The position numbers were made by a program, and so were the translations under genes. The notes beneath the pieces were generated by a model. That model ran no database searches. It was not told where the DNA came from and was given only the letters and a program-made list of their open reading frames with translations. Positions 60,376-64,000 of a DNA stretch of 64,000 nt are shown here, piece by piece. Each line of letters starts with the position of its first letter. The first letter of the stretch is position 1. Origin of the DNA: Krasilnikoviella flava (GTDB taxonomy: Bacteria > Actinomycetota > Actinomycetes > Actinomycetales > Cellulomonadaceae); the NCBI RefSeq assembly GCF_900167525.1, contig NZ_FUZQ01000007.1, forward strand, positions 310,001 through 374,000, in the 5' to 3' direction.

Positions 60376-61359
60376 TCAGGGGACCAGCAGCACCTTGCCG
60401 GTCGTCGCGCGCCCCTCGAGGGCACGGTGCGCCTCGCCGGCGTCCGCCAGCGGGAACGTCGCGCCGACGCGGACGTCGAGGTCGCCCGCCGCGGCGGCGC
60501 CCAGTACCTCGGCCGCCCGCCACTCCAGCTCTCCGCGGGTGAGCGTGTAGTGCGCCAGCGTCGGCCGGGTGAGGTAGAGCGAGCCACCGGCGTTGAGCCG
60601 CTGCGGGTCGAACGGCGGCACCTGACCCGACGCACCTCCGAACAGCACCAGCGTGCCGCGCGGGCGCAGCGACGCGAGCGAGGCGTCGAACGTCGCGCGG
60701 CCCACGCCGTCATATGCCACGTGCACGCCGCGGCCGTCGGTGAGGTCGCGCACGACGGCGGGCAGCTCGGTCGAGACGTCGCCCATCGCGGCGTAGTCCA
60801 CCGTGTGCGCGGCGCCCGCCGCCGACGACAGGGCGGCCTTCTCCGGCGAGGACACCGTCGTGATGACACGCCCGCCGCGCGCGACCGCGAGCTGCGTCGC
60901 GAGCAGGCCGACGCCGCCCGCCCCGGCGGTGAGCAGGACGTCGTGGCCCGGACCGACCTCGAAGGTCGACGCCACGAGGTAGTGCGCCGTCATCCCCTGC
61001 AGCGGCAGTGCGGCAGCGGTGACGAGGTCGAGCCCCGCGGGGACGCGGACGGCGTTCGCGGCGGGGACGACGGCGAGCTCGGCGTACGAGCCCGGGGCCT
61101 CGTTCCAGGCCACCTCGTCGCCGACGGCGAAGCCCGTCACGCCGTCGCCGAGCGCCTCGACCGTGCCCGCACCCTCGACACCGACGACGTGCGGGTAGCT
61201 CATCGCGTACACGCCCGCACGCCGGTAGGTATCGATGAAGTTGACCCCGGCCGCGGCGACGCGGACGACGAGCTCGCCCGGGCCGGGCGAGGGGTCGGGC
61301 TGCTCGACGTACTCCAGGACCTCAGGACCACCCGCCGCGCGGGCCACGACTGCGTGCAT
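60376..61359 (-). CDS. Quinone oxidoreductase (zeta-crystallin type MDR)
   Basis: 327 aa zinc-free medium-chain reductase. VRVAAAGVNFIDTYRRAG and the NADPH motif AGAGGVGLLATQLA are hallmarks; the active-site Cys/His zinc ligands of alcohol dehydrogenases are missing. It probably reduces quinones with NADPH. ATG 61359 follows TAGGCT by 7 nt (leaderless). It ends 55 nt before tam, with the tam dyad in between. Confidence 0.9.
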   Translation of the reverse strand: MHAVVARAAGGPEVLEYVEQPDPSPGPGELVVRVAAAGVNFIDTYRRAGVYAMSYPHVVGVEGAGTVEALGDGVTGFAVGDEVAWNEAPGSYAELAVVPAANAVRVPAGLDLVTAAALPLQGMTAHYLVASTFEVGPGHDVLLTAGAGGVGLLATQLAVARGGRVITTVSSPEKAALSSAAGAAHTVDYAAMGDVSTELPAVVRDLTDGRGVHVAYDGVGRATFDASLASLRPRGTLVLFGGASGQVPPFDPQRLNAGGSLYLTRPTLAHYTLTRGELEWRAAEVLGAAAAGDLDVRVGATFPLADAGEAHRALEGRATTGKVLLVP

Positions 61360-61366
61360 GCGCCCG

Positions 61367-61372
61367 AGCCTA
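61367..61372 (-). promoter_or_regulatory. Putative -10 box (TAGGCT) of the leaderless quinone oxidoreductase
   Basis: TAGGCT on the minus strand, 7 nt before ATG 61359. Confidence 0.5.
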
Positions 61373-61386
61373 CGCAGCCGGGACCG

Positions 61387-61989
61387 TCAGTCCGTCCGCT
61401 CGCCGGCCCGCACCGGCGTGGTGAGCCGGTTGCCGGCGGGCGCCAGCGGGCACGTCCAGGCGGGGTCGTAACGGCAGGACGGGTGGTAGGCGAGGTTGAG
61501 GTCCATCACCACGAGCCCGTCGCGCCCGCCGAGGTCGGCGCCCTTGGCCGTGTCGAGGAGGTACCTCCCGCCGCCGTACGTCTCGCCGCCGGCGGTGCCG
61601 TCGCGCAGCGGCACGAAGAGGCCGCCGCCGTACTGCGCCAGCCACCAGGCGTCCAGGGGGCCGATGCCGGGCAGCTCGAGCGTGCCGACGCGCTCCATCG
61701 TCGTCGTGCCGTCCGCCCCCGTGTCGAGCTCGAGCATGGCGGGCGGCGCGGGTCGCAGCGGGACCTCGAACCGCAGCGCCGGGTCGTAGGGCCAGTACGG
61801 CAGGCCGGACCTGCGCAGCGGGTCGCCGGAGGGCAGCGGGCTCTGCGGGTGGTCGCGGAACAGCGCGTCACGGCCGGCCCGCCAGGTGGCGTGCCCGCTC
61901 GCGGGGTCGGGGGCGGCGCGGACCGCCGCGTAGAGCTCGGCCGTGCGGCGCCGCCAGTCCGCGAGCTCGACCGCGGTACGCGGCGTCAT
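61387..61989 (-). CDS. DUF1684 family protein
   Basis: 200 aa, cytoplasmic. DUF1684 features: FRDHPQSPLP near the N-terminus, GGGRYLLDTAKGADLG and DLNLAYHPSCRYDPAWTCPL with the conserved His and Cys residues. Function unknown. ATG 61989 overlaps the methyltransferase stop in ATGA, so the two are co-translated. Confidence 0.85.
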   Translation of the reverse strand: MTPRTAVELADWRRRTAELYAAVRAAPDPASGHATWRAGRDALFRDHPQSPLPSGDPLRRSGLPYWPYDPALRFEVPLRPAPPAMLELDTGADGTTTMERVGTLELPGIGPLDAWWLAQYGGGLFVPLRDGTAGGETYGGGRYLLDTAKGADLGGRDGLVVMDLNLAYHPSCRYDPAWTCPLAPAGNRLTTPVRAGERTD

Positions 61990-62552
61990 CGCGCCGCCCC
62001 GGGCAGAGCCGTCTCCAGCTCGGCGAGCAGGAACGAGTCGCCGTCGTCGTGGCGCCACGCGGCGTGCCGGCGCAGGCGCAGCCCGGCGAGCAGTTCGGGC
62101 GTGGCGAAGCGGTCGTGGTGCACGGGGAAGTCGCGGGGTGGGCCCGCGGGCCGGCCGAAGCCGGTGAACGTCGCTGTGACGGCGCGGCCGCCCGGCCGCA
62201 GCACGCGGGCCCACTCGGCCAGCACCGCGTCCGGTCGGGGCATGAGCTGCAGCGCCGTCACGCACGTCACGAGGTCGACGGAACGGTCGGCGACGGGCAG
62301 CGCCGCCGCGTCGGCCAGGACGAACACGGCGGCGGGCAGCGCACGACCGGCGGCAGCGAGCATCGCGGGGGCGACGTCGACGCCGGTCGCCCGCAGCGGG
62401 TCCGGGGATGTCGCGGCCAGCGCCCGGAGCACCAGGCCGGTCCCGGTGCCGACGTCGAGGACGTCGGCGACCGCGGCGCCGACCGCGCCGCTCTCGATGC
62501 CGTTCTCGATGCCGTTCCCCATGTCGTCGGTCAGGGTCGGGTCGACGGTCAC
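61986..62552 (-). CDS. Class I SAM-dependent methyltransferase
   Basis: 188 aa. Motif I VLDVGTGTGLVLRAL, acidic VDVAPAMLAAA, and VTCVTALQLMPRPDAVLAEW followed by RVLRPGGRAV show a Methyltransf_11-type enzyme; substrate unknown. GTG 62552 lies 7 nt after TAGGGT. Two copies of a 12-bp unit encode the repeated NGIE near the N-terminus. Shares its promoter region with the divergent GNAT gene. Confidence 0.82.
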   Translation of the reverse strand: MTVDPTLTDDMGNGIENGIESGAVGAAVADVLDVGTGTGLVLRALAATSPDPLRATGVDVAPAMLAAAGRALPAAVFVLADAAALPVADRSVDLVTCVTALQLMPRPDAVLAEWARVLRPGGRAVTATFTGFGRPAGPPRDFPVHHDRFATPELLAGLRLRRHAAWRHDDGDSFLLAELETALPGAAR

Positions 62553-62559
62553 GCTGGCG

Positions 62560-62569
62560 ACCCTATGCT
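62560..62569. promoter_or_regulatory. Overlapping divergent -10 boxes, both leaderless
   Basis: ACCCTATGCT. Minus strand: TAGGGT (62565-62560), 7 nt, GTG 62552. Plus strand: TATGCT (62564-62569), 6 nt, GTG 62576. The two boxes share the TA at 62564-62565; only 23 bp separate the two start codons. Confidence 0.65.
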
Positions 62570-62575
62570 GCGCGG

Positions 62576-63094
62576 GTGACACGCGACACGAACCCGGCAT
62601 TCCGCGTCCGCCCGGCCCGCGACGAGGACTGGCCCCGTCTGTGGCCGATCGTGGCGGAGGTGGTGCGCGCGGGGGAGTCGTACGCCTACCCGACCGACCT
62701 CACGAGCGACGACGGTCGCGACCTCTGGATGGAGCGAGCGCCAGGCGCGACGGTCGTCGCGGAGGGGGCGGACGGGGAGCTGCTGGGCACGGCCAAGATG
62801 GGGCCGAACCGTCCCGGTCGGGGCGACCACGTCGGCACGGCGTCGTTCATGGTGGCGCCCGCGGCGCGGGGGCTCGGCGTGGGCCGGGCGCTCGGCGAGC
62901 ACGTCGTCGCCTGGCACCGGGAACAGGGCTTCCGCGGCATCCAGTTCAACGCGGTGGTGGAGACGAACGAGGCGGCGGTCCGGCTGTGGCGGTCGCTCGG
63001 GTTCGAGGTCGTCGGCACCGTGCCGGGTGCCTTCCGCAGTGCGTCGCACGGGTACGTGGGGCTGCATGTGATGTACCTACCGCTGGCCGGCTGA
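62576..63094 (+). CDS. GNAT-family N-acetyltransferase
   Basis: 172 aa single GNAT domain (FRVRPARDEDWPRLWPIVAEV at the start, acetyl-CoA loop ARGLGVGRALGEHV near residue 97, then FNAVVETNEAAVRLWRSLGF and GTVPGAFR). Similar to YhhY/phosphinothricin-type acetyltransferases, but the substrate cannot be assigned. GTG 62576 is directly behind its -10 box. Confidence 0.87.
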   Translation: MTRDTNPAFRVRPARDEDWPRLWPIVAEVVRAGESYAYPTDLTSDDGRDLWMERAPGATVVAEGADGELLGTAKMGPNRPGRGDHVGTASFMVAPAARGLGVGRALGEHVVAWHREQGFRGIQFNAVVETNEAAVRLWRSLGFEVVGTVPGAFRSASHGYVGLHVMYLPLAG

Positions 63095-63133
63095 CAGCCG
63101 TCGTCCGGTCCGCGGGAGGGGGTCCCCGGCGAC

Positions 63134-64000
<867 letters not shown>

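Follow-up and report, generated by a model that had tools for sequence, protein, structure and literature searches.

The DNA analysed here is a 64-kb window (C4:310001-374000) of a 4.85-Mb genome, whose G+C content is about 74% in the 1.2 Mb sampled. A methyltransferase gene and a GNAT acetyltransferase gene run away from each other across a short gap, and downstream of the methyltransferase lie two further genes. Both flanking genes are real. Among named sequences the GNAT protein is closest to those of Isoptericola species, so the genome is described here as Isoptericola-like. The features of the locus are as follows.

60376-61359, zinc-binding dehydrogenase-like gene, beyond the DUF1684 gene
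61367-61372, minus strand, separate leaderless-type -10 element of the dehydrogenase-like gene (TAGGCT-N7-ATG)
61390-61992, minus strand, DUF1684 gene, beginning inside the methyltransferase stop (ATGA)
61986-62552, minus strand, methyltransferase gene, 188 aa (Pfam Methyltransf_11, 1.6e-22; P0001)
62550-62552, minus strand, GTG start codon of the methyltransferase gene, 7 bases from its -10 element
62560-62565, minus strand, predicted -10 element TAGGGT of the methyltransferase gene, unchanged in 5/5 genomes
62564-62565, TA common to both -10 elements and its own reverse complement
62564-62569, plus strand, predicted -10 element TATGCT of the GNAT gene, unchanged in 5/5 genomes
62576-62578, plus strand, GTG start codon of the GNAT gene, 6 bases from its -10 element
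62576-63094, plus strand, GNAT acetyltransferase gene, 172 aa (Pfam Acetyltransf_1, 4.8e-16; P0002)

At the centre of the gap is ACCCTATGCT (62560-62569), a 10-bp core holding two -10 hexamers on opposite strands, and the whole arrangement, CAC-N7-ACCCTATGCT-N6-GTG, spans 62550-62578. An initial annotation had read a minus-strand TAGGGT and a plus-strand TATGCT as sharing 2 bp, with start codons 23 bp apart. The sequence agrees on both points: the shared TA lies at 62564-62565, and 23 bases separate the two GTG codons, or 24 when counted from first base to first base. On each side a TANNNT box stands 6-7 bases before an RTG start, with a gap of 6 for the plus-strand gene and 7 for the minus-strand gene. 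At this fixed spacing the window has a single occurrence of the pattern, and none of 100 dinucleotide shuffles has any. The pair had also been called fully leaderless, which by predicted start holds exactly for the GNAT gene and to within 0-1 nt for the methyltransferase gene. At the usual 6-base gap, transcription of the latter would begin at 62553, 1 nt ahead of the GTG; a 7-base gap would place it on the G of the GTG itself.

The DUF1684 gene is probably carried on the methyltransferase transcript. The window's methyltransferase is 188 aa long, against 208-244 aa in three relatives that share an N-terminal stretch missing here, and because of this absence the gene may be decaying. At the downstream junction in I. 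cucumis (L041) and I. luteus (L044), the TAG stop of the methyltransferase doubles as the opening TAG of the -10 element of the next gene, and the fused box, TAGTCT, is of the leaderless type, 6-7 bases before an ATG. On the other side of the locus, argC (semialdehyde dehydrogenase domains) also looks leaderless (TATAGT-N7-ATG at 63146-63161). Its box sits within an AT-richer stretch (window 63130-63161) that is kept in relatives and could be an arginine-repressor site.

A TANNNT box just upstream of RTG is a published signature of actinobacterial leaderless genes (PMC3160421, PMC3898074). We counted TANNNT-to-RTG gaps of 0 to 24 over 1.264 Mb of the window's genome and found 123 at gap 6, 89 at gap 7 and 36 at gap 8, with 14-31 at each of the remaining 22 gaps. 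Leaderless use of TANNNT-N6/7-RTG in this genome is strongly supported by these sequence counts. The two genes at our locus resemble the actinobacterial leaderless genes described in Zheng et al. 2011 (PMC3160421), Cortes et al. 2013 (PMC3898074) and Shell et al. 2015 (PMC4633059), with the same -10 motif and distance and no Shine-Dalgarno sequence. They differ in that two such genes stand back to back here, with boxes that overlap by two base pairs.

How well is the double box kept among relatives? We compared 18 genomes of the genus, 14 of which have a close GNAT orthologue. In five of these 14, the window's own and four other Isoptericola genomes, CAC-N7-ACCCTATGCT-N6-GTG is unchanged in core and spacing. 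Across the five genomes, 10 of 10 core columns are invariant, against 3 of 13 spacer columns, the other 10 being variable (Fisher p 3.6e-4, a rough value since the rows are related). On this contrast, the -10 elements are kept by selection. Alignment across related genomes was one of the checks proposed in the initial annotation, and it came out in favour: both boxes and their spacing are kept in all five genomes, that of the window among them, in which an ORF still runs from the minus-strand start.

The double box is absent from the other nine of the 14 genomes with a GNAT orthologue. In several of these nine (e.g. L042, L045, L055, L061, L068), the GNAT gene instead faces the dehydrogenase-like gene, and in this arrangement, seen in several genomes, the two genes have separate leaderless-type boxes with 10-12 bases between them. 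In one of the five genomes with the double box, Isoptericola sp. QY 916 (L039), the methyltransferase is down to a partly repetitive 31-codon ORF that overlaps DUF1684 by GTGA, with start, spacing and box all intact; the present role of this ORF may be that of a leaderless coupling peptide. Another genome, G017, holds a methyltransferase fragment in which no in-frame start codon was found. G017 lacks the double box, and upstream of its GNAT gene no TANNNT was found at a suitable distance. This co-loss of methyltransferase start and double box is a single case and only suggestive.

The same geometry recurs across the genus. The pattern CAYN{6,7}ANNNTANNNTN{6,7}RTG was found at 56 places in 17 of the 18 genomes, six of them in the window's genome. 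With both spacers shifted to 10-11 bases, it was found at four places in 4/18 genomes and at none in the window's genome; a reversed-pattern control gave a weaker contrast (20 against 56). The 56 places hold 33 distinct cores, so the double box is not one copied element. Shared-TA places with a 6-base spacer (43 of the 56) outnumber any single offset from 0 to 12 among close pairs that do not overlap (at most 21). These close pairs, taken from the same 18 genomes with 0-12 bases between boxes and at least one 6-base spacer, number 57 over 13 offsets, with none at offsets 0 and 2. A second favoured spacing appears among them, 21 of the 57 lying 10 bases apart, many with look-alike sequences across genomes.

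To what extent do these places lie between two genes? Twenty of the other 55 were fetched, picked to cover different cores. At nine of the 20, the ORF on one side was 54 codons or shorter, so geometry alone is no proof of two genes. Pfam was run on both sides of eight fetched places and on one side of two more, and a family was found on both sides at four of the eight: TetR/DinB_2, Rdx/MTS methyltransferase, MFS/GNAT and pyridine nucleotide reductase/DUF3017. The Rdx gene is present in 16 of the 18 genomes; the Rdx/MTS methyltransferase pair has the shared-TA double box in 9 of these 16 and the Rdx-side box alone in the other 7, among them the window's genome. Variable presence at both this locus and the GNAT/methyltransferase locus means that two gene pairs with no relation to each other have each gained or lost overlapping double boxes. 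Elsewhere, 8 of the 18 genomes keep a double box whose core is ACGGTAGTCT; in one of them, at L196 2043-2072 (G000:C10:605542-605571), one side opens just a 7-codon ORF.

The evidence is weaker outside the genus than within it. A phylum sample of 119 genomes had 952 places against 894 at shifted spacing, which is no overall enrichment; we think that the background of AT-rich genomes swamps the signal. The nine genomes of the same class, the window's own left out, gave 68 against 22, in a split that was chosen after seeing the table.

Two TANNNT boxes with a common TA give a start distance of 23 bp by simple counting, a geometry that is already known. Bacterial bidirectional promoters are defined by start sites 7-25 bp apart (PMC12825309, PMC10268837), and according to PMC12825309 such promoters have start distances of 18, 10 and 23 bp, with 23 bp among the common ones. 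At our site, where the -10 elements overlap, the predicted distance of 23-24 bp falls within this definition, and the statement that bidirectional -10 promoters are known is borne out by the 23-bp class. As in earlier descriptions of such promoters (Warman et al. 2026, PMC12825309; the Salmonella plasmid study PMC10268837), a short symmetrical -10 region is predicted to serve two directions; unlike in them, each predicted start here falls at the start codon of a protein-coding gene, leaving no leader. That the site belongs to a known kind of promoter, as its leaderless variant, is a well-supported prediction. The 18-bp form, with a fully shared TANNNTA, is the commonest in E. coli; in leaderless form it was found at nine places in 6/18 genomes of our genus, fewer than the 38 in a reversed-pattern control, and so shows no sign of enrichment, unlike the 23-bp form. 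With the 23-bp geometry known and 56 leaderless-geometry places in 18 genomes of the genus, the remark that so compact a version is striking was overstated. The pattern is more general than first thought, which makes the single site less exceptional.

Divergent leaderless genes also have a precedent. In M. tuberculosis, according to a figure legend in PMC3898074, closely juxtaposed divergent promoters are common, and the divergent genes prpD (Rv1130) and Rv1129c both have mRNAs mapped as leaderless. The -10 overlap seen at our locus is not mentioned in that legend. Our search, with most subscription literature and the founding paper on bacterial bidirectional promoters (Warman et al. 2021) outside it, found no description of leaderless bidirectional promoters as a class or of a divergent leaderless pair served by one bidirectional 10-bp core, and no transcription start site map of Isoptericola among papers judged on titles and abstract openings.

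We consider it probable that ACCCTATGCT acts as one bidirectional promoter of the main sigma factor and that both mRNAs are leaderless, with start sites and leaderless translation predicted from the DNA. Two TANNNT elements on opposite strands would overlap at a palindromic TA, and RNA polymerase, whichever way it faced, would melt the same few base pairs. A rightward polymerase would start at the GNAT GTG; a leftward one would start at the methyltransferase GTG or one base before it and would probably continue into DUF1684. Both leaderless mRNAs would then enter leaderless translation initiation. Several points count against this single-promoter reading: the minus-strand gap is 7 rather than 6, the minus-strand gene is reduced in L039 and a remnant lacking the double box in G017, nine of the 14 genomes with the GNAT orthologue do not have the double box, and at 9 of the 20 other places one side has a short ORF.

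Other explanations of the locus have to be weighed. The GNAT box could be the sole true promoter, with the methyltransferase leadered and expressed from a promoter inside the GNAT gene, and TAGGGT a chance match or by-product. The GNAT-side box is indeed kept more widely than the minus box, being in frame at 27 of 81 loci, and 9 of the 20 other double-box places have a sizeable ORF on one side only. The minus box, however, keeps its six letters and 7-base gap in 5/5 genomes while the spacer varies, even where the minus ORF is 31 codons long, and we regard this explanation as unlikely.

It is still less probable that TAGGGT is no -10 element at all and contains the ribosome-binding site (AGGG) of a leadered methyltransferase mRNA, although AGGG lies at a plausible distance for one, 8 bases before the GTG. 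By the test used for M. smegmatis in PMC6448022, AGGA, GGAG and GAGG at -17 to -6 are absent on both sides in all five genomes with the double box. The two terminal Ts of TAGGGT are also invariant, which a ribosome site would not require, and on these two grounds the Shine-Dalgarno reading was rejected. We give slightly less credence again to the conserved block being the operator of a regulator that controls both genes, with promoters elsewhere. Conservation of all ten core letters, including the free positions of TANNNT, together with the adjoining CG, would fit an operator, but the block is not an inverted repeat, and 33 cores among 56 places suit a promoter geometry better than one operator.

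If ACCCTATGCT is a bidirectional promoter, two polymerases would be unable to occupy it together, and binding in one orientation would exclude the other. Simultaneous binding is impossible at bidirectional promoters, and all five tested in E. coli fire at basal rates too low for competition, which emerges once one direction is strongly activated (all from PMC12825309). By analogy, polymerase exclusion at the GNAT/methyltransferase site is likely real; given the low basal firing in E. coli, it may have little effect here unless one gene is induced.

What might such sites mean more widely? We tentatively propose that selection could have favoured leaderless bidirectional promoters as a way of organising gene pairs, one that recurs in Isoptericola and probably elsewhere among high-GC actinomycetes. 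Such promoters could arise from single-gene leaderless promoters by a base change or two, a short route to a two-gene promoter that is open because TA reads the same on both strands. The 23-bp form with its shared TA would be preferred to E. coli's 18-bp form, and it would tie the expression of both genes together, with no room for another control element. Initiation at both GTGs of our site would show that a 23-bp gap is enough to launch two whole genes in opposite directions, each with its promoter merged into its translation start. Because they have no leader and no spare space, such sites would be clean natural tests of polymerase competition. The pattern would also provide a sequence rule for locating them in genomes without transcript data, and a before-and-after comparison is possible within the genus, where the same gene neighbourhoods exist both with overlapping boxes and with boxes that stand apart.
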